In this document: one piece after another, positions 4,761-31,051 of the stretch | Position numbering within the stretch: the stretch's first letter is position 1 | How the letters are laid out: each line of letters opens with the position of its first letter | Program-made: the position numbers and the translations under genes | NCBI RefSeq assembly: GCF_900106515.1 | Contig: NZ_FNWF01000003.1 | Coordinates: 930,001 to 994,000, forward strand | DNA length: 64,000 nucleotides | Origin: Peptoniphilus lacydonensis | Lineage (GTDB): Bacteria; Bacillota; Clostridia; Tissierellales; Peptoniphilaceae | Direction of reading: 5' to 3' | Notes under the pieces: model-generated | The model's database searches: none | Seen by the model: only the letters and a program-made list of their open reading frames with translations | What the model was told of the DNA's origin: nothing

Positions 4761-6104
4761 CTACCTTACCATCATTAATTTTCCGTCTTCGGTGTTGAAA
4801 TAATAAATGTTATCCATGTAGGACATTTCATATACTAACATTGGCTCTTCTGTTTCAAATTTATTGAAGCTTAAATAGACGAGATTTAAGCTATCTATAT
4901 TTTTTAAAATATCCATTGCAGATTTGTAAGAAAATAATTTTTTGTTTTTATTTAAAATTCTGTGAATATCTGTTAAATAAATTTTTTCCTTTTTGTAAAT
5001 TGGATTGTCATCTTTTCTAATATAATATTCTCTATAATTTTTTACAAATTCAGAATACACATCAATTTCAATAAAGCTATGTTCCTTTGAAGGCAAAACT
5101 AATGGGATTTGTCCGTCTTTTAAATTAAAGAAGAACCTGTATCCTAAATTTTTATTGTATTCAATTGGTTCAATTTTTTCTAAATATATCCCGCTACTTA
5201 TACCTGCTTTTTGTGCAATAAATTCAACCGCTTGGTCCAAGGATTTATTTAAATTCCTCATTTTAGAATCAAAAAGAGATTCCAAGGAATATTCTATTAT
5301 TCCATCGCGAGAAAGAGATAAGTACTCATTTTCATATATATAAGTGTTTTTTCCATCGGCAGAAAGTTCTCTCATAAAATCTGAATCTACATTTAAAAAT
5401 CTTTCGGCTAAGGCATTTTTTTTATCATCTTCCAAATTGTAAAGGCCAGAAATATAAGAAACTTTTTGCAAAGATATATAATTTTCAGAAGGAATATATA
5501 TATCTTTTTTTATCCCATAGGCTTCATAGAAATTTACTGCGTGAAGTCCCTTTTCTCTTACTTTATTCAAAATTTCGTCGATTTGAAAATCAACTTTTAT
5601 GTCAATTAATTTATAAAAATTTTTGCTCCCAGAGATGTAAATTTCACCTTTATCAGAAATGTAAATGGAGTCTACACTTAAATTAATTTCGTTGCTATTT
5701 CTATTATCGCCAATTAAATTTACAAAAACAGAACCAGAAAGAGGAGAATTAAATTTAAAAACAATGGATCTTTGACTTTGCAGATTTAAATATTCATCTA
5801 TGCTTATGACTTTTAAATTTTCTGAAGTAGCATTTTGGAGTTTTTTAGAAATACTTTCTGCAGTTATCTTCCAAAATTCTGATGTGTCAGATGTCATAAA
5901 GTGTTCTCTTTCTGAAAAGTTTGCAATAATTCTCTGTGGAGTTAATATTTCTTGTAAAAACTCATTTGCATTGAAATTACTTTTTGGGTTTTCATCTGTG
6001 GTACTAAAGGAGAGCCATAAATTTTTGGACTGAATAACTAGAAGAATTATCAAAAAAAATATTAGAAAAGTGGATAAAGATTTTTTATTTTTTTCCATCT
6101 TCAT
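4761..6104 (-). CDS. yycH: YycH/WalH regulatory membrane protein
   Basis: A 447-residue protein with a single N-terminal membrane helix (about residues 8-28) and a large extracytoplasmic domain, the YycH pattern. It should form a complex with YycI and WalK. I chose the ATG at 6104, preceded by AGGA six bases upstream; a second in-frame ATG is at 6098. The start overlaps the walK 3' end by 20 bases, implying coupled translation. The sequence is divergent, so position in the operon supports the call as much as the residues do. Confidence 0.82.
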   Translation of the reverse strand: MKMEKNKKSLSTFLIFFLIILLVIQSKNLWLSFSTTDENPKSNFNANEFLQEILTPQRIIANFSEREHFMTSDTSEFWKITAESISKKLQNATSENLKVISIDEYLNLQSQRSIVFKFNSPLSGSVFVNLIGDNRNSNEINLSVDSIYISDKGEIYISGSKNFYKLIDIKVDFQIDEILNKVREKGLHAVNFYEAYGIKKDIYIPSENYISLQKVSYISGLYNLEDDKKNALAERFLNVDSDFMRELSADGKNTYIYENEYLSLSRDGIIEYSLESLFDSKMRNLNKSLDQAVEFIAQKAGISSGIYLEKIEPIEYNKNLGYRFFFNLKDGQIPLVLPSKEHSFIEIDVYSEFVKNYREYYIRKDDNPIYKKEKIYLTDIHRILNKNKKLFSYKSAMDILKNIDSLNLVYLSFNKFETEEPMLVYEMSYMDNIYYFNTEDGKLMMVR

Positions 6105-7881
6105 CACCAGTCCTAAATAAAAGAGTGACAGTTGTTCCTTCGCCAAATTTTGAATCTAATTTTAAATTTCCACCCAAAAGTTTTATCATTTCATTTGCAA
6201 TAGAAAGCCCAAGTCCAGTGCCGCCCATGGCTCTACTTCTTCCTTTTTCAACTCTGTAAAATCTTTCTGTTATTCGAGGAAGATCTTCTTCTGGGATTCC
6301 TATACCATTATCAGATATTTTTATTTCAACAAAGTCATCTACATTTTTTGCAAGAATAGAGATTTTTCCATTTTCAGGAGTGTACTTACAAGAATTAGAA
6401 ATAATATTTGTAAGGATTTGATCGGCTCCATTTCTATCTGCATAAATGTCATTTATATCCATGGCAATATTAAATTCTATTTTGTGATTCTTGCTAGAAA
6501 TTAAAATTGATTGCGACTCAATTGCTTCGTCTATAAATTCATAAGTGTCAAATTTTGAAAAACTCAAATTATTCCTATTGTAATCAATGTTTGAAAGAGA
6601 TAAAAGATCTGTTACAATCCTAGACATTCTAGAATTTTCTCTGTCTATCACTCTTAAAAATTTCTTTTCAGATTCATCGTCAAGCTCACTTTCCAAGAGA
6701 GTTTCTGTGTATGATTTAATAGTTGTTATTGGAGTTTTAAGCTCGTGGCTTACATTTGCAACAAATTCTTTTCTCATAATATCAAGAAGGTGTTCTTTGT
6801 TGACATCTTGTAACACAATAATAAGCCCAGAATTTACAAAGGCATCTGATTTATAGGGAGCATATTTAATTTTATAAAAATTATCTCCAATTTTTGTCAA
6901 TTCTTCGCCCTTTAAACTTTCTTCATTTTTGTAATCTACATTGTATAAATTAATACTTTTTAAATTGATTTCTCTATTAAAATCTTTTTCAGAAATGTTT
7001 AAAATTTTCTTTGCAATGGAGTTTGCGTGAATAAGCCTGTTTTTTCTGTCAATTGCAATTACACCTTCTGCCATGTAATTAAAAATTGTGTCAAGCTTAG
7101 ATTTTTCAAGATCCATTTTTTCAATAGTTTCACGAAGTTCTTTAGTTAAAAAATTAAAAGTTTTTCCAAGTTCGCCAATTTCATCGTCACTTTTAATCTC
7201 AACACTTTGATTGAAATTTCCTTTTGCCATAGCCCTTGTTTTTTTAGTGAGGGCTCTAATTGGATCTGTGATAGAATTGGCAATAAAGTATCCAAGAATT
7301 GAAGTTACAATAAGAGAAATTAAAGTTGCGTAAGTGATTATGACCTTTGAGTCGTCAATGACAGAATAAATTGAATTTAAATTTCTAGTCACATAGATTA
7401 TAGCAAGGATCTTTCCGTCACCAGATAAAATTGGTCTTGTAATGTGTTTTTCTACATTTTTTTCATTTTTGTATTCCACAATTTTTTCACGACTTTTTCC
7501 ATTAATTGTGTCCATGACAAGTTTTGGCTCAATATATTTAAACCCATAGGCACTTTTTAAATCTTTATAAGAAATATTTTTTGTGCTTGCGATAATTTTG
7601 GGATTTTTTTCTGCAGATATAATATAGGCAGATTCTTCACTGGAAATACCCCAGTCTTTTAGAGTTTCATCAAGCTGGGGTAGTGTATCATAATTATTAT
7701 TTTTAAAAAAAGCAGATGTTGTAGTTGCAAGGGTGTCCATAGTTTTAATCATAGAAGTAGTTGCAGTTTCCACTTGTACCCTTTCAAGTCTATCTATTAT
7801 AAAGGAAGAAGCTATAAACATTGATATTAAAACGAGTACGACATAAATTAAAATAAATCTAGATTTAATACTGTGATTCAT
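6085..7881 (-). CDS. walK: WalK sensor histidine kinase
   Basis: The 598-residue kinase has a first membrane helix (about 9-28), an extracytoplasmic sensor domain (about 30-180), a second helix (about 182-204), HAMP (about 205-257), a PAS domain (about 265-365), a HisKA domain with phospho-acceptor His379 in NVSHELKTP, and a HATPase_c domain with the N box ISNSCKYT, DNGIGI and GTGLGLSIA. WalK senses cell-wall metabolism and phosphorylates WalR. The start overlaps the walR stop by four bases (ATGA), consistent with translational coupling. All catalytic motifs are intact. Confidence 0.95.
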   Translation of the reverse strand: MNHSIKSRFILIYVVLVLISMFIASSFIIDRLERVQVETATTSMIKTMDTLATTTSAFFKNNNYDTLPQLDETLKDWGISSEESAYIISAEKNPKIIASTKNISYKDLKSAYGFKYIEPKLVMDTINGKSREKIVEYKNEKNVEKHITRPILSGDGKILAIIYVTRNLNSIYSVIDDSKVIITYATLISLIVTSILGYFIANSITDPIRALTKKTRAMAKGNFNQSVEIKSDDEIGELGKTFNFLTKELRETIEKMDLEKSKLDTIFNYMAEGVIAIDRKNRLIHANSIAKKILNISEKDFNREINLKSINLYNVDYKNEESLKGEELTKIGDNFYKIKYAPYKSDAFVNSGLIIVLQDVNKEHLLDIMRKEFVANVSHELKTPITTIKSYTETLLESELDDESEKKFLRVIDRENSRMSRIVTDLLSLSNIDYNRNNLSFSKFDTYEFIDEAIESQSILISSKNHKIEFNIAMDINDIYADRNGADQILTNIISNSCKYTPENGKISILAKNVDDFVEIKISDNGIGIPEEDLPRITERFYRVEKGRSRAMGGTGLGLSIANEMIKLLGGNLKLDSKFGEGTTVTLLFRTGDEDGKK

Positions 7882-19686: not shown

Positions 19687-22254
19687 ATGTTAGATAAGTT
19701 ATATGCACACATTGATGGTAATAAAAAACAAGATTTATTTTCGCATCTAGTCAATACTGCTTGTGAATGCAAAGCTATTGGAGAGAAAGTTCACATGGCA
19801 AATCTTTCTTTTTTAATTGGTCTTCTGCATGATATTGGAAAGGCAAGTAACGATTTTCAAGAAAAGATCACTAAAAATAGCAATGCTTTAGTGGATCATT
19901 CTACTTTGGGTGGACTTTTTATTTTAAAAATTTATGAAGACTTTAATAGAGATGTTGAAAATAAAAAATTTGATAATTGGCAAGATTTATTTTCTATTTT
20001 AAATGAGGATTCTTCTTTAGTTTTTGAATTGGGAGATTATGCAAATATTTTAATTTACACGATTATGTCCCATCATGGTCAGTATGATATGGTAAGAAAA
20101 AATGATAAAAATGAGTTTGTTTTTACAAGTTTTGATAGAATTAAAAAAATTGAAAATAGTCTTTATAAAGATAAAAAAATTAATAATGAAAGAATTTTAA
20201 ATATTGATGAATTTTATGAAGATTCACAAAAGTTTTTTGAATCAAAAAATATTTACATAAAAGATTTATTTTGCAAAGGTTTTTGTGAATATGCAGAAAT
20301 TTTAAAGAGTTTAAAAAATGTTTCTTCAAAATTTAGCGAAGGTAATGAAGCTCTATTTTTTTATAAAGGCATGATGATAAGGCTTTTGGTTTCAATTTTA
20401 AAATCAGCAGATATAAAGGACACTATAAATTCTTATGATGAAATAATTATAAAAAAAGATGAAGAAGAACTCAAAAAAGTTATTAAGAGTTTTGAAAAAA
20501 ATGTAGAAAATAAATATGCTTCCTTTGGAAATCCAGACGGCAAGTTAAATATTGTGAGAAATGAAATAGCAGAAGATATTTTAAATAGATCAAAGGAAGA
20601 CGGAACTGGAATTTATAAACTTGATCTTCCGACAGGCGCTGGAAAAACTTTATTATCTCTTAGATATGGCATTAATCAAATGAATTATCAAAATAAAGAG
20701 AGATTTTTTTATGTAACTTCTTTTCTTTCTGTTCTTGAGCAAAATGCAAAGGAAATGAAAGATGTGCTTGACAACGATGATTATATACTTGAACATCACT
20801 CAAATATTATTGACGAAGACTATGATAGCAAGACAAATGATGATATCGATGATTCAATAAAGAAGGTTCGAAAGAAATATCTTTTAGATGATTGGACATC
20901 TCCAGTAGTATTGACTACAACAGTGCAATTTTACAATACTATTTTCAAAGGTAAATCTTCTAATTTAACTAGATTTAAGTCAATGATAAACTCTGTAATT
21001 ATTTTGGACGAATGGCAATCTATTCCAACAGAATTTTTATATTTAACAAATTTAGCTTTAAATTTTATGAAAGTTGTAATGAATGTAACTATTGTGTTAT
21101 CCACTGCAACTCAACCAACAAATGCATCAAATTATTTAAAACATAAACTTTTTTATGGAGATTTAGATGGAAAAAATGAAGATATAATTGACTTAAAAAA
21201 TTATGAATGCAGTGTTTTTGAAAGGGCTAAATTAAAAATATTTGGAAATATTAGAGATATGTATGGTATAGAAGATATAAGAGATTTAGTTCTGGAAAAT
21301 CCTTACAAGTCAAATTTAATTATTTTAAACACAAAAAGTGTAGTTAGAAAACTATATGATTTGTTAAAAGAAAATTATGATGAAAAAGATTTATATTATC
21401 TTACGACAAATTTAACTGCCAATGATAGACTCAAAAAAATTTCAGAGATAAAGAAAAGATTAAAAAATAATGAAAAAATTTGCGTAATATCAACTCAATT
21501 AATAGAAGCTGGAGTTGATGTGGACTTTGATCTTGTGATAAGGTCTTTAACTGGGATGGACTCTGTAATTCAAGCGATGGGAAGGTGTAATCGAGAGGGC
21601 AAGAAAGAAATTGCATATACTTATTTAATAAATTTGGACAAAAATGAAGAAAAGTCATCTCTATTAAAAGGTGTCGATGAGAGAAAAAGTGCCAGCCAAT
21701 TTGTTTTGGGAGAAGTAGAAGAAAATTTTGATCTTAAGTGCTTGACTGAGGACTATTTTGAGAAACTATACGCAAATTTAAATGAAGATAATTTTTCTCC
21801 TATTTTGGAATGGCTGTCTGAAAATCCAGAAAAAATTGACAATTTATTAAAAACTAAAGATGAAAATATTAAAAATTTGGAAGATAGATTTCTTTATGCA
21901 CAAGAAGAAAAAATGATTTTAAATTTATTTCAATCTTTTAAGAAGGCATATAATAAATTTCAGCTTATTGAAGAAAACCAGAAGACAGCCATAGTAAACT
22001 ATGACGAAACAAGGGAAGAAATTAAGAAAATTTGGGATTTGGAAGAGAAATTTTTGGAATCTTATGATGTAAATATTTTAAAGGAATTAAAGGTAATTTT
22101 AAAAAAATTAAATAGACACACAGTTGCAATTAGAGAAAAAGATGTGAGTAGTTGCGACAAAATATTAGATGGAGAAGTGTATATTTTGCCAGAGATTTAT
22201 TATGATAAAAAATTTGGATTAGATTTTAAAAGTCTTGGAGGGATGATTTTATAA
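19687..22254 (+). CDS. cas3: Cas3 nuclease-helicase (type I-C)
   Basis: The 855-residue protein fuses an N-terminal HD nuclease domain (H20; LLHDIGK at about 46-52) to a superfamily 2 helicase: Walker A LPTGAGKT at 314-321, motif II LDEWQ, motif III LSTATQP, and motif VI QAMGRCNREGK. Cas3 is recruited to R-loops made by Cascade and degrades the non-target strand. All key residues are present. It is the first gene of the locus and has its own promoter and a downstream terminator, leaving a 197-base gap before cas5c that holds a crRNA-like RNA gene. Confidence 0.96.
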   Translation: MLDKLYAHIDGNKKQDLFSHLVNTACECKAIGEKVHMANLSFLIGLLHDIGKASNDFQEKITKNSNALVDHSTLGGLFILKIYEDFNRDVENKKFDNWQDLFSILNEDSSLVFELGDYANILIYTIMSHHGQYDMVRKNDKNEFVFTSFDRIKKIENSLYKDKKINNERILNIDEFYEDSQKFFESKNIYIKDLFCKGFCEYAEILKSLKNVSSKFSEGNEALFFYKGMMIRLLVSILKSADIKDTINSYDEIIIKKDEEELKKVIKSFEKNVENKYASFGNPDGKLNIVRNEIAEDILNRSKEDGTGIYKLDLPTGAGKTLLSLRYGINQMNYQNKERFFYVTSFLSVLEQNAKEMKDVLDNDDYILEHHSNIIDEDYDSKTNDDIDDSIKKVRKKYLLDDWTSPVVLTTTVQFYNTIFKGKSSNLTRFKSMINSVIILDEWQSIPTEFLYLTNLALNFMKVVMNVTIVLSTATQPTNASNYLKHKLFYGDLDGKNEDIIDLKNYECSVFERAKLKIFGNIRDMYGIEDIRDLVLENPYKSNLIILNTKSVVRKLYDLLKENYDEKDLYYLTTNLTANDRLKKISEIKKRLKNNEKICVISTQLIEAGVDVDFDLVIRSLTGMDSVIQAMGRCNREGKKEIAYTYLINLDKNEEKSSLLKGVDERKSASQFVLGEVEENFDLKCLTEDYFEKLYANLNEDNFSPILEWLSENPEKIDNLLKTKDENIKNLEDRFLYAQEEKMILNLFQSFKKAYNKFQLIEENQKTAIVNYDETREEIKKIWDLEEKFLESYDVNILKELKVILKKLNRHTVAIREKDVSSCDKILDGEVYILPEIYYDKKFGLDFKSLGGMIL

Positions 22255-22262
22255 TACCAAAG

Positions 22263-22333
22263 AAAAAAGACCTATTAAATTAATTAGGTCTATTTTCCAT
22301 ATAAATATTTTTCAATCCACAGCTCTTGCTGAT
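22263..22333 (-). ncRNA. Putative crRNA-like RNA (CreR-like) in the cas3-cas5c gap
   Basis: On the minus strand, from about 22333, the RNA begins with hairpin CAGC-AAGA-GCTG (22331-22320), then TGGATTGAAA (22319-22310), identical to ten of the 11 bases of the array repeat's 3' handle; the eleventh is A instead of T. In both, the stem's last G directly precedes TGGATTGAAA. A guide-like stretch starts at 22308 and the RNA ends in terminator AGACCTA/TAGGTCT with a T tail at 22268-22263. The hairpin is far shorter than the 7-bp stem of the array repeat, so Cas5c processing may be weak or unnecessary because the 5' end already starts at the stem. Guide bases 1-14 match the cas5c promoter. It resembles the reported CreR cas-regulating RNAs. 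No expression data. Confidence 0.75.
22268..22296. terminator. Bidirectional terminator: cas3 (+) and crRNA-like RNA (-)
   Basis: AGACCTA (22268-22274) and TAGGTCT (22285-22291) form a 7-bp stem. On the plus strand it is followed by ATTTT, on the minus strand by TTTTTC. It ends cas3 transcription and, in the other direction, the small RNA. Confidence 0.75.
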
Positions 22334-22338
22334 AATCT

Positions 22339-22347
22339 ATTATATCA
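22339..22347 (-). promoter_or_regulatory. Extended -10 promoter of the crRNA-like RNA
   Basis: On the minus strand TGATATAAT is a perfect extended -10 element (TGnTATAAT). Initiation about seven bases downstream falls at 22332-22333, immediately before the hairpin. A -35 element is weak (TTTTAA at 22367-22362), as is usual with extended -10 promoters. It diverges from the cas5c promoter. Confidence 0.65.
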
Positions 22348-22378
22348 AAAAAATAAAAAATTTAAAATTCAAAAACAG

Positions 22379-22407
22379 TTGACAAAAATAAATTTTCATA
22401 TTAATAT
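22379..22407 (+). promoter_or_regulatory. Promoter of the cas5c-cas2 operon
   Basis: Consensus TTGACA (22379-22384), 17-base spacer, TAATAT (22402-22407). The -10 element lies inside the region matched by the guide of the crRNA-like RNA. Confidence 0.75.
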
Positions 22408-22416
22408 GTAATTAAG
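22395..22416 (+). promoter_or_regulatory. Predicted Cascade target site in the cas5c promoter
   Basis: A TTC PAM (22395-22397) is followed from 22398 by ATATTAATATGTAA. The RNA guide reads ATATTTATATGGAA; positions 1-5, 7-11 and 13-14 agree and only 6 and 12 differ. After position 14 the match fades (18 and 19 agree). TTC is the canonical type I-C PAM. The site covers the -10 element, so bound Cascade would block initiation; limited pairing would favour binding without Cas3 cleavage. Confidence 0.7.
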
Positions 22417-22451
22417 GAAGTTATTTTAATTTAAGCTTGAGGAGGTGAATT

Positions 22452-23156
22452 ATGAATAAATCAAGATATTTTTACGCAAAAATTTACGGGGCAAAGGCAT
22501 TAATTACTGCTCCTGAAAGCAAGAGTGGGGGAGAAAAAATTTCATATGACATTCCTACGGGAGAAGTTTTGAAAGGTATAATTGATGCAAATTATTTTAA
22601 ACCCACAATTTTAAATGTGATTGACGAAGTTAGAATAATGAATAAAATTGAATCCTATACTCAAGGAATAAGACTTCTTTTAAAAGATTATAAATCTGAC
22701 CTTAGTGCATATACATTTTTGACGGATGTATGCTATTATGTGAAATTTCATTTTGAATGGAATGAGTATAGAGAAGATTTGAAAAATGACAGAAATTTTA
22801 ATAAACACGAATCTATAACAGAAAGATCCCTTAGAAGAGGTGGAAGAAGACCAATATTTTTAGGGGTGTCTGAATGTATGGGTTATATTGATATTCTAAC
22901 TGAAGAAGAATATGAAAATGATATTGGATATTATGATGACACATCAAAGGGATTTGGGCTTATGTTTGTTGGATTTATTTATCCAAGGGAATCTGGAGAA
23001 ATTTTAAAATCAGCTTATGCACCAATTAACATGAAAAATGGGAGGATAGTTTATCCAAAGCCAGAGGAATGTCCGATAATAAATGAAGTTTCAAACTATT
23101 CTTTTAAAGAGCCAAGTCTTACTAAGACAGTTGATGAGGAATTAAAGGATTATTGA
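22452..23156 (+). CDS. cas5c: Cas5c (Cas5d) crRNA-processing endonuclease
   Basis: The 234-residue protein is the type I-C Cas5, an RRM-fold protein that cuts pre-crRNA at the 3' base of the repeat hairpin and stays on the 5' handle as a Cascade subunit. Type I-C lacks Cas6, and none is present here, which fits. Features include the early YGAKALITAPESKSGGEKIS region and the glycine-rich, arginine-rich SLRRGGRRPIFLGVSEC. The ATG follows GAGGAGGTG. It starts the operon cas5c-cas8c-cas7c-cas4-cas1-cas2, 14 bases before cas8c's start. Confidence 0.93.
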   Translation: MNKSRYFYAKIYGAKALITAPESKSGGEKISYDIPTGEVLKGIIDANYFKPTILNVIDEVRIMNKIESYTQGIRLLLKDYKSDLSAYTFLTDVCYYVKFHFEWNEYREDLKNDRNFNKHESITERSLRRGGRRPIFLGVSECMGYIDILTEEEYENDIGYYDDTSKGFGLMFVGFIYPRESGEILKSAYAPINMKNGRIVYPKPEECPIINEVSNYSFKEPSLTKTVDEELKDY

Positions 23157-23169
23157 TGGAGGTGATATA

Positions 23170-25113
23170 TTGAGTTTTTTGACAGCTTTATACGATAGTT
23201 ATAACTATGGACTTGAAAATAATTTAGTGGGAGATTTAGATAATAAATCAAGTTTAATTTTACCTATTTATCACAATTCTATGAAGTCTAATGGGAAAAA
23301 TATTGTAGAGATTCTTGTAAATAAAAAAAGTGAATTAGTTGATGCTCATTTTTTAAATGAAAATGAAATTGTAATTTTTCCAGTTACAGAAGATTCTGTT
23401 GCTCGTTCTAGTGGGGTTGCGCCACATCCTTTATTTGATAATTTTGATTATGTAATTCAAGAGGACACCAAAAAATCTAATGCGTATATAGAGCAACAGG
23501 AGTTTTGGTTAAATTCTTGTGAAGATGATTTTGTAAAGATAATTCATGACTTTATCATTAAAGAAAAGGTTTTTGAAGAAATATTAGGTAAACTTTTTAA
23601 AGAATATAAAATTTTAAAGGATAAAAATGTTGGATTTATTGATAATTCTGATAAAAAATCAAAGAAGATGAACATAGATTTTTCTAAAGTTTTTTTAACT
23701 TTTAAAATCCAAAATTATGATGAGAAAAAAGACTTGAGCCTTTCTGAAAATAAAAATTTACAACAAAAATTTATAGAATATACTAGAAAGACCTTTGAAA
23801 GGGACAAAGACTCTGAAAAAATAATTTGTAATATTAGCGGAAAAGAAGATTTTTTGTGTTTAAAGCATAAACCTTTAATAGGTTCTGCAAGATTAATTTC
23901 TCAAATAACTGCTAACAATGAAAACTATTTAGGTAGATTTGAAAAGCCAGACAATACTATAAAAATTGGAAAAGAATCTAGTCAAAAAATTATTCAAATG
24001 GCAAAATCTCTTTTAGATGGAGAAAAAACATCTAGATGGCTTGGAGAATTCACTTATGCCCTTTCTTGGTTTTCTGATGATATACAAAACAAATCTGGAC
24101 TAGATCCAGGTAAGAGTGTTGAAATTGAAAATGTTGGAGGAGTATTATCCCTACTAGGGAAAAAAGATGGCATAAAAAGCTCTGGAATTCTTAAAAAAGA
24201 GAAAATATCTGATGAAAATTCAGAAAACATAGTTAAGTCATTTACAAGTGGAAAGATTTTATTTTCAAATGAATCAAAATATTATATGGCGATAGTTGAC
24301 AAAGTTAGCAATGGAAGGGTTGCTGTAAAATATTTTAGAGAGATGGATAGTTCAAGGTTAAAAGAAAATTTAGTGAGTTGGCAAAATAAATATAATTGGA
24401 TTAAGCACACTAAAGATAGTGAAATAAAAAATTACACACCAAGTCCACTTATGCTAATACTAGCAGCTTATGGAGTTGAGAGAGAAAAGGGGTTAGAGGT
24501 ATCTAAAAAGAAGTTTGTCACAGATCAATATAAAAATATTTTGGCATCAATAATAGAAGGTAGAGATATGCCAAAAAATATTTCATATGCATTGGAAATG
24601 AACATAAGAAATAGACTTAATTATGATAAATCTTGGGCACAAGTAAAGCTATGTGCTTTAGCAGTTTTAAAAGAAAAGGAGGGAATAACAAGCGATATGT
24701 TAGATAGAAAAGATACAGATAGATCTTACTTATTTGGAAGACTTTTAGCACTCTATGAAAGATTAGAAAAAATTACTTATGATACTGATAACGAAAGAGT
24801 AACTAATGCAGAAAAACTATGGACGAGTTATGTCAATAAACCTGTAACAATGAATTTAAGACTTAGAAATTTACTAAGACCTTATGAAGATAAATTGATT
24901 GTCAATGAATCTAAAAGAGGAATATATTTTAAAATAAAAAGAGATATACGAGAAGTTTCAAATCTATTGAGTGAGAATTATGATTATAAGTTAAAAGAAA
25001 ACAATAGACCACTAGGGCCAGGTTTTATATTCGGATACGAAGCTCAAATGAAAGATTTATTTACAAAAAGAGAAGATAAAAAAGATTTAGAAAGTGAGGA
25101 AAAACATGATTAA
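23170..25113 (+). CDS. cas8c: Cas8c large subunit of type I-C Cascade
   Basis: A 647-residue Cas8c (Csd1 family), the large subunit that reads the PAM and stabilises the R-loop; in I-C an internal start often also yields the small subunit Cas11c from its 3' end. The protein begins SFLTALYDSYNYGLEN and contains GSARLISQITANNENYLGRF and a helical C-terminal part with NYDKSWAQVKLCALAVLKEK. The start is a TTG at 23170 behind GGAGGTGAT. Its last 8 bases overlap cas7c. An internal Cas11c start was not located with confidence. Confidence 0.92.
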   Translation: MSFLTALYDSYNYGLENNLVGDLDNKSSLILPIYHNSMKSNGKNIVEILVNKKSELVDAHFLNENEIVIFPVTEDSVARSSGVAPHPLFDNFDYVIQEDTKKSNAYIEQQEFWLNSCEDDFVKIIHDFIIKEKVFEEILGKLFKEYKILKDKNVGFIDNSDKKSKKMNIDFSKVFLTFKIQNYDEKKDLSLSENKNLQQKFIEYTRKTFERDKDSEKIICNISGKEDFLCLKHKPLIGSARLISQITANNENYLGRFEKPDNTIKIGKESSQKIIQMAKSLLDGEKTSRWLGEFTYALSWFSDDIQNKSGLDPGKSVEIENVGGVLSLLGKKDGIKSSGILKKEKISDENSENIVKSFTSGKILFSNESKYYMAIVDKVSNGRVAVKYFREMDSSRLKENLVSWQNKYNWIKHTKDSEIKNYTPSPLMLILAAYGVEREKGLEVSKKKFVTDQYKNILASIIEGRDMPKNISYALEMNIRNRLNYDKSWAQVKLCALAVLKEKEGITSDMLDRKDTDRSYLFGRLLALYERLEKITYDTDNERVTNAEKLWTSYVNKPVTMNLRLRNLLRPYEDKLIVNESKRGIYFKIKRDIREVSNLLSENYDYKLKENNRPLGPGFIFGYEAQMKDLFTKREDKKDLESEEKHD

Positions 25114-25960
25114 CAATAAAATAGATTTTATATTCACGATTGAAGTTTCTGGAGCTAATCCAAATGGGGACCCACTTACTGGTAATATGCCTAGAATTGA
25201 CAATCGTGGATTTGGAGAAATTAGTGACGTTTGCTTAAAAAGAAAAATTAGAAATAGAATGCAAGATATGGGCAATGAAATATTTGTAAAATCTTTGGAC
25301 AGAAGTGATGATGGATTTAGATCTCTTGAAAAAAGATTTGAAAATATTTTTAAAAAGGATGTAAGTGATGAAGAAGTCGAAAAAAGAGCCAACGAAATGT
25401 GGATTGACATAAGATCTTTTGGGCAAGTATTTACTTATCAAAAGAGGGCTCTTGGAATAAGAGGACCAGTAAGCATTTCTATTGCAAAATCAATTGAGCC
25501 CATAGAAGTAACTACAATGCAAATAACAAAAAGCATAAGTGGAATGGAGCCTAGTGCTGGCAAGACAAGAAGTGCAGATACCATGGGTACAAAACACTTT
25601 GTAGATTATGGAATTTATGTAGTAAATGGAAGTGTTAATTCATACTTTGCAGAAAAAACTGGTTTTAATGAAAATGATATAGAAACTTTAAAAGAGTGTA
25701 TTAAAACTTTATTTATAAATGATATATCTTCAGCTAGACCAGATGGCTCAATGGAAGTTAAAGACATATTCTGGTTCAATCATTCTTCTAAAGTTGGCGA
25801 TGTATCAAGTGGAAAAATAAAAGAACTTTTAAGATATGATTTGCCTGACGCAGAAACTTTAAAACCAAAATACGAAAATTACAATATAAGATTAGATGAA
25901 GAAAAATTAAAAGAATACGAAGAAAATGGAATAAGATTAGAATATATTAAAGGGATTTAA
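25106..25960 (+). CDS. cas7c: Cas7c backbone subunit of Cascade
   Basis: A 284-residue Cas7 (Csd2 family), the RRM-fold protein that lines the crRNA guide in several copies. It has the family start FTIEVSGANPNGDPLTGNMP and the segment GIRGPVSISIAKSIEPI. The ATG at 25106 follows GAGGA; an in-frame GTG four codons upstream precedes this site. Each Cas7 thumb flips out every sixth guide:target base pair, which matters for reading the match described at 22395-22416. Confidence 0.94.
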   Translation: MINNKIDFIFTIEVSGANPNGDPLTGNMPRIDNRGFGEISDVCLKRKIRNRMQDMGNEIFVKSLDRSDDGFRSLEKRFENIFKKDVSDEEVEKRANEMWIDIRSFGQVFTYQKRALGIRGPVSISIAKSIEPIEVTTMQITKSISGMEPSAGKTRSADTMGTKHFVDYGIYVVNGSVNSYFAEKTGFNENDIETLKECIKTLFINDISSARPDGSMEVKDIFWFNHSSKVGDVSSGKIKELLRYDLPDAETLKPKYENYNIRLDEEKLKEYEENGIRLEYIKGI

Positions 25961-25961
25961 A

Positions 25962-26615
25962 ATGTATGCTGAAGACGACTATTTAATGCTAAGTGGTTTA
26001 CAACACTTTTTGTTTTGCAAAAGACAGTGGGCACTTATTCATATAGAAAATATATGGACAGAAAATTTTTTCACAGCACAAGGTCAAATAGTTCACGAAA
26101 AAGCAGACGAACCTTTTATAAAAGAGAAGAGAAAAAATATAATAATATCAAGAGCAATGTCAGTGAGTTCCAAAACTTTGGGGCTCTCGGGCAGGCTTGA
26201 TGTAATAGAATTTCATAGGTCAGAAGAAGGAATCAAACTAAAAAATAGAAGCGGAAAATGGAAACCAATAATTGTCGAATACAAACGAGGAAAAAAGAAA
26301 AAATATGATTATGACAACGCTCAACTAATGGCACAAGCAATTTGTATAGAAGAGGACTTTAACATAAAACTTGAATATGGATATGTTTACTACAACGAAA
26401 CTGATACAAGAGAAAAAGTAGAATTCACAGAAGAACTTAGAAGTTTAACAATAAATTCTTCAGAAAAAATGCATGAATATTACAAAAACAAATACATACC
26501 AAGAGCAGAATATTTTAAAAATTGCAAACTTTGTTCACTTTGTGAAGAATGTAGACCTAGACTCACAAAAAAGATAAAAAGTGTTAGTAATTATATTTAT
26601 GGAGCAGAGTTATGA
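25962..26615 (+). CDS. cas4: Cas4 Fe-S exonuclease
   Basis: The 217-residue Cas4 has Cys19 (FLFCKRQW) and a C-terminal cysteine cluster at 188, 191, 194 and 197 that together hold a 4Fe-4S cluster, plus RecB-like nuclease residues in GLSGRLDVIEF and IIVEYKRGK. Cas4 trims prespacers and enforces PAM choice with Cas1-Cas2. It starts two bases after cas7c and overlaps cas1 by four bases (ATGA). Confidence 0.95.
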   Translation: MYAEDDYLMLSGLQHFLFCKRQWALIHIENIWTENFFTAQGQIVHEKADEPFIKEKRKNIIISRAMSVSSKTLGLSGRLDVIEFHRSEEGIKLKNRSGKWKPIIVEYKRGKKKKYDYDNAQLMAQAICIEEDFNIKLEYGYVYYNETDTREKVEFTEELRSLTINSSEKMHEYYKNKYIPRAEYFKNCKLCSLCEECRPRLTKKIKSVSNYIYGAEL

Positions 26616-27643
26616 AAAAATTATTAAACACACTTTATGTGACAAATCCAGATTACTATCTTAAAAAAGAAGGAAGGAATATATCAGTAACATTGGATTC
26701 AAAAAGAGTAGCAAGATATCCTATCCACATTTTAAAACAAATAGTTTGCTTTAACTATATGGGAGTAAGCCCAGCTCTTATGAAGATGTGCATGGAAGAA
26801 AATGTTGCAATAACATTTTTTACACCCTATGGGAAATATTGTGGCAGAGTAATAGGTGCATCTTATGGAAATATTTACACAAGGAAAAAACAATATAAAA
26901 TGCAGGAATCAGAAGAGTCCTTAGATTTTGTAAAAAATATAATTTATGCCAAAGCCTACAATTCTAGAAAAATTTTAATAAGAGGAAAATTAGACCACAA
27001 AGATAAAGTGGATGTATTAAGATTAGAAGAAGCAATAGACGCAATAAAGATATTAATGTTAGAAATTAGAAACTGTAGTAATAAAGACAGTGTGAGAGGA
27101 ATTGAAGGGACTATAGCGAGATTTTATTTTTCTGTATTAGATGAACTAATTATAAAACAAAGAGAAGACTTTTACTTTATAGAGAGATCAAAAAGACCAC
27201 CAATGGATAGATTCAATGCATTGATTTCTTTTTTATACTCATTACTTACAAATAATATAGCAGCAGCACTTGAAGGTGTTGGAATAGATTCTTATGCAGG
27301 TTTTTTTCACACAGATAGACCGGGAAGAGTTAGCATGGCACTAGACATAATAGAAGAAATGAGAGCCCTTTTAGTTGATAAGTTTTCTCTTTCAATGATA
27401 AACTTAGGCAGAATAAATAAAAATCATTTTGAAGTAAAAGAAAATGGGGCAACATTATTAAACGAGAAAGGAAGACAAATAGTATTAGAAAATTGGAACA
27501 AAAAAGAACAAGATGAGATATATCACACATTTATAGAAGAAAATATAAAAATAGGATTACTTCCTCATATACAGGCGCAACTTTTAAATTCATACATAAG
27601 AGGAGATATAGAATCTTATCCACCATTTATGATAGGAGGATAA
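26612..27643 (+). CDS. cas1: Cas1 integrase
   Basis: A 343-residue type I-C Cas1. Catalytic residues sit in GIEGTIARFYFS (Glu), SYAGFFHTDRPGRVSMALDI (His and Asp/Glu). It forms the Cas1-Cas2 integrase that inserts spacers at the leader end of the array. Its stop overlaps a GGAGG site that serves cas2. Confidence 0.96.
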   Translation: MKKLLNTLYVTNPDYYLKKEGRNISVTLDSKRVARYPIHILKQIVCFNYMGVSPALMKMCMEENVAITFFTPYGKYCGRVIGASYGNIYTRKKQYKMQESEESLDFVKNIIYAKAYNSRKILIRGKLDHKDKVDVLRLEEAIDAIKILMLEIRNCSNKDSVRGIEGTIARFYFSVLDELIIKQREDFYFIERSKRPPMDRFNALISFLYSLLTNNIAAALEGVGIDSYAGFFHTDRPGRVSMALDIIEEMRALLVDKFSLSMINLGRINKNHFEVKENGATLLNEKGRQIVLENWNKKEQDEIYHTFIEENIKIGLLPHIQAQLLNSYIRGDIESYPPFMIGG

Positions 27644-27644
27644 A

Positions 27645-27938
27645 ATGCAAGTATTAATAACATATGACGTAGAAACAATAACATCTGAAGGCAAAAAAAG
27701 ACTTAGGCAAGTATCAAAAGTATGTGTTGATTATGGGCAAAGAGTACAAAATTCAGTATTTGAATTAAATATTTATCAAGCAGATTTATTAGAAATAAAA
27801 AACAAACTTATAAAAATAATTGATCCGCAAAAAGATTCAATAAGAATTTATAATTTAGGGAAAAATTGGGAGAGAAGAGTAGAAACATTAGGAAAAGATG
27901 ATTCCTATAATCCAGAAAAAGATTTACTTATGTTATAA
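27645..27938 (+). CDS. cas2: Cas2
   Basis: A 97-residue Cas2 with the ferredoxin-like start VLITYDVET and RLRQVSKVCVDYGQRVQNSVFE. It bridges Cas1 dimers in the integration complex. The gene ends in TTATAATG, which also forms the extended -10 promoter of the array. Confidence 0.96.
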   Translation: MQVLITYDVETITSEGKKRLRQVSKVCVDYGQRVQNSVFELNIYQADLLEIKNKLIKIIDPQKDSIRIYNLGKNWERRVETLGKDDSYNPEKDLLML

Positions 27939-28069: not shown

Positions 28070-31051
28070 GTCGCACCCTTTATGGGTGCGTGGATTGAAA
28101 TAACAGAATTATCTGTACAAGTGACAAAAAAGAAGTGTCGCACCCTTTATGGGTGCGTGGATTGAAATTTATAAGGTATCACTAGGCAAACTTGCACATC
28201 AAGTCGCACCCTTTATGGGTGCGTGGATTGAAATCAAAAAGGCGAGAATATTATTTTTACTGCTGATAATGTCGCACCCTTTATGGGTGCGTGGATTGAA
28301 ATACGTTATTCATTTTCTAACTCCTTTAAATCTCATAGTCGCACCCTTTATGGGTGCGTGGATTGAAATACAGGCACTTAAAAAAAATAATGAGAGCAAT
28401 GATACGTCGCACCCTTTATGGGTGCGTGGATTGAAATAACTCTCTAAAGTTTAAAAGTTCCCACGTCTTTTCAGTCGCACCCTTTATGGGTGCGTGGATT
28501 GAAATTTCTTATATCTTTATCAAGTGTATACATTTGACTTGTCGCACCCTTTATGGGTGCGTGGATTGAAATTCATGTAAGTAACCTCAGACTCAATGCT
28601 TGTATGTCGCACCCTTTATGGGTGCGTGGATTGAAATGGTAGAAAGACAGGACTTGCTAATGTTATCCACATGTCGCACCCTTTATGGGTGCGTGGATTG
28701 AAATATTTTTCCACCCCTTTATCGAGTAAATCTTTGATGTCGCACCCTTTATGGGTGCGTGGATTGAAATTTGATAAATTTCTAAATCTAAATCAGATTC
28801 AAATTCGTCGCACCCTTTATGGGTGCGTGGATTGAAATAAAATCTGCCTTACCTTGTATCAAGTTGCCAACAAGTCGCACCCTTTATGGGTGCGTGGATT
28901 GAAATTACTATTGCAATCACTCCTTTGTTGTGTTATAATTTGTCGCACCCTTTATGGGTGCGTGGATTGAAATACTAATTTTAAGGTATAACGTAGGTGA
29001 TATGCCAGGTCGCACCCTTTATGGGTGCGTGGATTGAAATACTAATTTTAAGGTATAACGTAGGTGATATGCCAGGTCGCACCCTTTATGGGTGCGTGGA
29101 TTGAAATTCGTCTTTTAAAACTTCTACTCTAGCACCTAAAAGTCGCACCCTTTATGGGTGCGTGGATTGAAATAATTCAGCAGCTTCAAGTTCACTTTCG
29201 CTTACCACGTCGCACCCTTTATGGGTGCGTGGATTGAAATCTATAAATAGAAGAAACTTGTTATAAATCTATTATGTCGCACCCTTTATGGGTGCGTGGA
29301 TTGAAATTTTTGGGAACACGCTCTAAGCTAGTGATTGCAACGAGTCGCACCCTTTATGGGTGCGTGGATTGAAATCCAGCACGCACATCTTAAAAGCAAA
29401 AAAGATGCAGGTCGCACCCTTTATGGGTGCGTGGATTGAAATAATTTCATGTGCATCTATGCTAAATTCAAATGTTCTGTCGCACCCTTTATGGGTGCGT
29501 GGATTGAAATTCCAAGCTCTATATCTGTATCATAAAATCCTGTACGTCGCACCCTTTATGGGTGCGTGGATTGAAATGAATCATAGACAAGATTATTTTC
29601 TTTATCTAGTATGTCGCACCCTTTATGGGTGCGTGGATTGAAATATCCTTTGTCATATAAATTGCCTTTTCATAACCAGTCGCACCCTTTATGGGTGCGT
29701 GGATTGAAATCGTCTGGATTGTTGATGACTCTTACCTTTGTTTCAGTCGCACCCTTTATGGGTGCGTGGATTGAAATTGTCATTATTTGATACTTGTACT
29801 TAATACCATTTGGTCGCACCCTTTATGGGTGCGTGGATTGAAATCACATTAACTGGGATTTTAGAAGGGAAACACACTAGTCGCACCCTTTATGGGTGCG
29901 TGGATTGAAATTAAAATATCCTAAGTATGCAGTAAAGGGTAAAAAGGTCGCACCCTTTATGGGTGCGTGGATTGAAATGTTAAATTTTCACTTTTATTTG
30001 TTCCTACATACAGTCGCACCCTTTATGGGTGCGTGGATTGAAATAACGCTTTACTATCACGTTACTCCCTCACCGTTTGTCGCACCCTTTATGGGTGCGT
30101 GGATTGAAATTATAGATACTAACAATAATAAGATTTAAATTGTTAGGTCGCACCCTTTATGGGTGCGTGGATTGAAATCTTATGAAATGGTATATGTAGG
30201 TCTGACAACACCAGTCGCACCCTTTATGGGTGCGTGGATTGAAATTATATAATAAAGAAATTGTATGTTTTTGGTTTTTATGTCGCACCCTTTATGGGTG
30301 CGTGGATTGAAATCCGTTGTGGTTGCAGTAGAGAAAACAAAAAACAAGTCGCACCCTTTATGGGTGCGTGGATTGAAATCATTATTTACTTTATACGATA
30401 ATTCAAATTCCGTTGTCGCACCCTTTATGGGTGCGTGGATTGAAATGAGGTTGATGATATATCTTGCAAAGGCAAGGGAAAGTCGCACCCTTTATGGGTG
30501 CGTGGATTGAAATATGAGGCTCCAGAGAAATTTTCTACTGCAGGACCTGTCGCACCCTTTATGGGTGCGTGGATTGAAATCTCCAAAGTCTCTGATGACC
30601 TGACGGGAGTTTCTAGTCGCACCCTTTATGGGTGCGTGGATTGAAATTTTGCATCTACTACCATCGTTAATAACGCAAACCCGTCGCACCCTTTATGGGT
30701 GCGTGGATTGAAATTATAAATTTACAATATAACATTTTAGAAGATTTAAGTCGCACCCTTTATGGGTGCGTGGATTGAAATGTCAATTGTAAACGACATT
30801 ATGATGGATTATTATCCGTCGCACCCTTTATGGGTGCGTGGATTGAAATTTCTATGGTGTCAAAAGTTCCCAAATATTTGTTTTGTCGCACCCTTTATGG
30901 GTGCGTGGATTGAAATGATGGCGACTTGATATTTTTACGAAAAACCAGTGAGTCGCACCCTTTATGGGTGCGTGGATTGAAATATACACAATGTAGAGAA
31001 GCTAAGGGAAAAGCCACTTGTCGCATCCTTTATGGGTGCGTGAATTGAAAT
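28070..31051 (+). CRISPR. Type I-C CRISPR array, 45 repeats / 44 spacers
   Basis: Forty-five direct repeats of 32 bases begin at 28070. Each has arms CGCACCC and GGGTGCG around TTTAT, then the 11-base handle TGGATTGAAAT. Spacers are mostly 33-36 bases. The first 44 repeats look identical; the last (31020-31051) has two changes (CGCACCC to CGCATCC and TGGATTG to TGAATTG), marking the leader-distal end. Spacers 14 (28974-29008) and 15 (29041-29075) are identical. Open frames seen across the array come from the repeat itself and are not genes. Confidence 0.99.

Follow-up and report, generated by a model that had tools for sequence, protein, structure and literature searches.

The 64-kb stretch of DNA analyzed here, hereafter the window, has Peptoniphilus species as its nearest named relatives, and contains a complete type I-C CRISPR system plus array. 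The cas genes and the array are laid out as follows:

19687-22254, plus strand: cas3 (type I-C)
22452-23156, plus strand: cas5c (Cas5d), the first gene behind the targeted promoter
23170-27938, plus strand: cas8c, cas7c, cas4, cas1 and cas2
28070-30983, plus strand: CRISPR array with the 32-nt repeat GTCGCACCCTTTATGGGTGCGTGGATTGAAAT (repeat and spacer analysis)

The array counts 44 repeats by exact pattern, and 45 copies in a looser repeat family. Its 43 spacers are 33 to 36 nt long and 42 of them are distinct, two neighboring ones (28974-29008 and 29041-29075) being identical. A phage record from human feces (MT836291.1, Bacteriophage sp.) aligns over positions 5280-7291 with the array in many pieces, at 63.8% identity when these are joined, and seems from its sequence to carry an array of similar repeat.

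The interval separating cas3 from cas5c in this Peptoniphilus type I-C locus holds one solitary crRNA-like gene on the minus strand, composed of the following parts:

About 22262-22333, minus strand: crRNA-like RNA gene, with a small hairpin, an 11-nt type I-C handle, a guide of about 17 nt and a terminator hairpin
22339-22344, minus strand: -10 box TATAAT of this gene, preceded by TG (promoter scan)
22320-22331, minus strand: 5' hairpin CAGC-AAGA-GCTG, a degenerate CRISPR-repeat stem (RNA fold)
22309-22319, minus strand: 11-nt type I-C 5' handle TGGATTGAAAA (sequence, and comparison with the array repeat)
22292-22308, minus strand: guide ATATTTATATGGAAAAT, 17 nt ahead of the terminator stem (sequence)
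22262-22291, minus strand: terminator hairpin AGACCTA-10-TAGGTCT, followed by a T tract (fold, alignment)

Type I-C crRNAs are made by Cas5d, not Cas6. The 5' part of the RNA, a hairpin and then an 11-nt handle, is built as a type I-C crRNA; the array repeat ends in TGGATTGAAAT, to which the handle TGGATTGAAAA is identical except for its own last base. The 3' part is not built in this way: where the array has spacers of 33 to 36 nt and a 3' repeat hairpin, the RNA has its short guide and a terminator stem beginning at guide position 18. The whole RNA folds at -15 kcal/mol (z -2.36), with 3 of 200 shuffles as good, and its promoter (TTTAAA at 22366, TATAAT at 22339) scores 10/12 in the promoter scan. 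The terminator is absent from the list of the terminator scan because that scan allows loops of at most 8 nt and the loop here has 10. No Rfam family matched at E values up to 1 within 22150-22500. A role as antisense to cas3 was ruled out, the RNA ending at about 22262 and cas3 at its stop at 22254.

The guide matches the promoter that lies ahead of cas5c, and it does so on both strands:

22379-22407, plus strand: cas5c promoter, with TTGACA at 22379-22384, a 17-nt spacer and TAATAT at 22402-22407 (promoter scan)
22395-22411, plus strand: plus-strand target, with a TTC PAM at 22395-22397 and a 14-nt protospacer at 22398-22411
22391-22410, minus strand: conserved-strand target, with the PAM position at 22410-22408 (TAC) and the protospacer at 22407-22391

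The initial annotation had described a guide-promoter alignment beside TTC with mismatches only at positions 6 and 12, and the sequence is exactly as claimed: after TTC the plus strand reads ATATTAATATGTAA from 22398, the guide reads ATATTTATATGGAA from 22308 on the minus strand, and positions 1-5, 7-11, 13, 14, 18 and 19 agree while 6 and 12 do not. The promoter scan agrees as well with its placing of the site over the -10 TAATAT of the TTGACA promoter. Guide positions 6 and 12 do not pair. The window offers 127,953 sites when both strands are counted, and with these two positions left out a full match over positions 1-14 (12/12) is found at 2 of them, both being the cas5c promoter, one per strand; no other site in the window attains it, and a second target at the cas3 promoter was rejected on this ground. 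With 20,000 shuffled guides at the promoter, 12/12 beside TTC was never reached; it was reached 8 times with any PAM, and 10 of these guides attained 14/15 with any PAM. When 18,258 17-mers of the window, the promoter's own included, were taken as guides, one gave 12/12 beside TTC, 30 gave it with any PAM and 35 gave 14/15. The pattern combining seed and PAM, TTCATATTNATATG, occurs once in the genome (1,845,182 bases), at the cas5c promoter.

The seed fits both strands because the -10 of the window is a palindrome, CATATTAATATG. On the plus strand the site has TTC but agrees at 12/15 core positions, versus 14/15 core positions (up to position 17) on the minus strand, where the PAM position reads TAC; this division is the evidence within the window that counts against the repression proposed below. 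The minus strand, opposite to the sense of the cas genes, is the matched one in the other 14 of 15 loci compared, and among 16 loci the PAM of this conserved site is TTC in 13, TTT in 2 and TAC in one, the window. The plus-strand target of the initial annotation stands in the window as regards its TTC and 12/12 fit, but the relatives have their protospacer on the opposite strand, and we read the minus-strand protospacer as the ancestral one. Either strand would put Cascade on the -10 of the cas5c promoter.

As to the PAM used by the system, 12 protospacer-like matches of the array's spacers were found in related genomes (L118-L126, L128-L130), in regions that presumably are prophages. Their PAMs are TTC in 5, TTT in 2, and CTC, CTT, TGC, ATG and ATA in one each, the ATG resting on an ungapped match of just 22/35 and the ATA on one of 28/34; TTC is thus the commonest, and TAC is not among the 12. 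These PAMs were drawn from relatives because a search of the array against phages gave one record, itself repeat-bearing, and the related prophages may differ from those that supplied the spacers.

An RNA of the same kind lies between cas3 and cas5c in 16 of the 27 Cas5c-bearing genomes found among 130 genomes of the family. In two more (G120 and G015) cas3 runs directly into cas5c and the RNA is located upstream of cas3; both RNAs have a 10/10 seed match beside TTC, and the downstream frames are Cas3. The matched site is immediately ahead of cas3 in G015 and about 750 nt upstream of it in G120, which is therefore the weaker of the two cases. This brings the RNA to 18 of the 27 genomes; in the stretches examined it was not found in the other 9, the extra stretch available for G118 being 729 bases long, up to a contig end, and this absence also counts against the repression proposed below. 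The species that carry it include P. harei, P. vaginalis, P. genitalis and P. grossensis and, beyond Peptoniphilus, Urinicoccus massiliensis, Anaerococcus porci and A. senegalensis. In P. phoceensis (L005), one of the 9 genomes without it, the RNA is gone and a terminator-like hairpin is all that remains, a natural loss of the RNA. In most of the 16 loci a TATAAT-like box can be made out by eye in a similar position. A terminator-like stem is present in 14/16, although a T-rich tail is missing after some (L029, for example). The stem begins between guide positions 10 and 23, and between 16 and 20 in 12 of the 14 loci; the guide is therefore far shorter than the array spacers.

Whether guide and promoter drift independently among relatives was examined in 15 of these 16 loci; the one left out (L033) has a broken cas5c and a retained RNA gene that almost touches the cas promoter. 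They co-vary, across several genera: guides agree with their own promoters at 211 of 225 core positions, and the best of 20,000 re-pairings of guides and promoters reached 184. Per locus, the fit is 13 to 15 of 15 (mean 14.1) with the own promoter and averages 10.1 with the promoters of other loci, and between 0 and 5 of 3,000 shuffled guides fitted equally well. Within positions 1-14, mismatches occur at position 6 in 12/15 loci and at position 12 in 12/15, and in only 2 of the 180 remaining cells (one at position 8, one at 13); they number 2, 4 and 6 at positions 15, 16 and 17. The excess at 6 and 12 is partly built in, because the score by which sites were chosen disregards these two positions and so favors mismatches there, but the scarcity of mismatches at the remaining twelve is not. 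The 15 loci are not 15 independent events, since the guides are the same or nearly so within two pairs (L007/L026 and L027/L028). In P. genitalis (L004), the guide diverges from other Peptoniphilus guides from the third base, and the promoter is altered to match. Such comparative evidence, spread over several genera, resembles a natural compensatory-mutation experiment.

Because guide and promoter changed together in related bacteria, we consider it very probable that this solitary crRNA-like RNA, a cas-regulating RNA (CreR), guides the type I-C Cascade to repress its own cas operon. By analogy with CreA and CreR, the minus-strand gene at about 22262-22333 would be transcribed into the RNA, whose degenerate repeat hairpin and handle Cas5c (Cas5d) would cut or bind. 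Loaded with this RNA, the type I-C Cascade would be directed to the promoter of cas5c-cas8c-cas7c-cas4-cas1-cas2, where the guide would pair over the -10 through positions 1-5 and 7-11 and a few bases further. Cascade on the promoter would block transcription, so that the effector level would set its own production. Published work on CreA and CreR suggests that array crRNAs or inhibitors such as anti-CRISPR proteins, by drawing Cascade off, would lift the repression, and that the short guide would spare the target from Cas3. Autorepression by Cascade through a short seed match, as the initial annotation had proposed, is supported by the covariation, by the recurrent mismatches at 6 and 12 and by TTC as the commonest PAM.

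RNAs of this kind are already published. CreR (Liu et al. 2023, Cell Host Microbe 31:1481, as relayed in passages of PMC13131331, PMC12737573 and PMC12948488) are described as cas-regulating RNAs acting in autorepression; in these passages, one review names subtypes I-B, I-E and V-A, and another says type I and V-A generally. Like the RNA of the window, they are described as solitary, crRNA-like, located beside the cas operon and partly complementary to the cas promoter, and their autorepression by the system's own effector is what we propose here by analogy. In the window, accordingly, a solitary crRNA-like gene whose repeat is degenerate adjoins the cas operon, and its guide is in part complementary to the cas promoter beside a PAM (TTC on the plus strand, TAC on the conserved strand); covariation of guide and promoter, a mark of CreR that is ours and is drawn from no paper, is found too. 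The difference from the subtypes named in those passages is that the window's RNA belongs to I-C, in which Cas5d and not Cas6 makes the crRNAs; Cas5d products carry 11-nt handles, according to PMC3890593. Membership of subtype I-C is new to us, and would extend RNA-guided cas autorepression to that subtype; among the literature matches listed we recognized no cas-regulating RNA in I-C, which does not imply absence from print.

The pairing rule is that of CreA, for which PMC8501985 reports a need for TTC and for positions 1-5 and 7-11, and no harm from changes at 6 or 12. The RNA of the window shares this pairing, the TTC, the freedom at 6 and 12 and the degenerate repeat, as well as the build of CreA in H. 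hispanica, one repeat plus a terminator, but CreA (I-B) is described there as repressing a toxin gene, whereas the RNA of the window (I-C) has the cas promoter as its match, with no toxin in sight. CreA and CreR being alike in build and following the same seed rule, the RNA might nevertheless be a CreA-type antitoxin, repressing a small toxin (CreT) encoded between it and cas5c and so punishing the loss of Cascade. Five Peptoniphilus relatives (L002-L006) do have, in their cas5c leader, a stretch like ATGAT(A/T)TCGTTTTC with its ATG. This stretch is absent from the window, where the likely start site is about 40 nt from cas5c with no ATG between them, and P. phoceensis (L005) keeps it without the RNA, which is unexpected of a toxin. 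The targeted promoter runs directly into cas5c, with no toxin gene with an ATG start behind it, and we rejected a CreT in the leader and hold the antitoxin explanation to be very unlikely.

The RNA might also be a leftover repeat-spacer unit that matches the promoter by chance, helped by an AT-rich -10. Guide and promoter are both AT-rich, and the average of guides at foreign promoters is 10.1/15; a permissive scan with any PAM gave 13/15 in L005 and L036 too, lacking hairpin or promoter position and judged to be chance; and single hairpins are weak, a stem as long occurring in 4 to 50 of 1,000 shuffles. Yet a stem of 4 or more Watson-Crick pairs abuts the handle in all 16 family loci and stays paired despite differing sequences (CAGC/GCTG, CAGAG/CTCTG, CTAGTA/TACTAG, CATCG/CGATG and CGTAGT/ACTACG), mismatches up to position 14 are almost confined to the two non-pairing positions, and no re-pairing comes near the fit of the own pairs. 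Covariation contradicts a chance match, which we regard as extremely improbable. A last explanation grants both Cascade loading and promoter binding to the RNA, but has it chiefly occupy Cascade, as a decoy or solitary-repeat inhibitor like the phage Racr RNAs; solitary repeats are indeed able to inhibit CRISPR systems, as stated in PMC10651486. A pure decoy, however, needs no guide that tracks a promoter, and the RNA gene adjoins the very promoter it matches; we give this explanation little credence.

Repression by a guided Cascade has an engineered counterpart in type I-C. In PMC10865793, Cascade without Cas3, with a spacer over a -10 beside TTC and the coding strand bound, gave about 10-fold repression. 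The site is like that of the window; the spacer there has 35 nt and Cas3 was removed, whereas the window combines cas3 with a natural guide some 17 nt long. It is possible, though we lean against it, that I-C CreR form a branch in which a guide shortened by the terminator (mostly 15-19 versus 33-36 nt) yields a stunted Cascade that binds and represses without triggering Cas3, and that in the window's species the palindromic -10 lets the guide bind either strand, so that PAM loss on one side is survived via the other. A short, terminator-ended guide would predict how binding without cleavage arises.

Beyond the family, a phylum sample had 103 genomes above the Cas5d cut-off, of which 60 were examined. 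Absences in relatives are soft, because the scans covered only listed handle variants near the guide, some of them also only a short PAM list, and because stretches are cut by contigs (about 12 of the 60 phylum stretches end early at contig ends). Six lone hairpin-bearing handles, spread over 5 of the 60 loci (L148, L150, L153, L156 and L164), have nearby matches of at most 7/10 seed bases; these handles may belong to stray repeats, or their guides may have distant targets. Matches of 12/15 without hairpin in L139, L197 and L204 were judged to be chance, and a genome of the same order (G176, L042), with handle and terminator in place and a 12/15 match in which positions 1, 5 and 10 are off, was not counted. 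Two of the 60 loci are positive (G490 and G382), with 9/10 seed bases and 14/15 and 13/15 core positions, respectively, and this small share, like the six poorly matched lone handles, counts against the proposed repression; a 9/10 seed occurred in 6 of 860 trials with shuffled guides and in 4 of 43 lone handles, G120 and G015 included. In G382 (L144) the RNA precedes cas3 and its site is located upstream of the -35, on the coding-sense strand, a geometry unlike that of the family.
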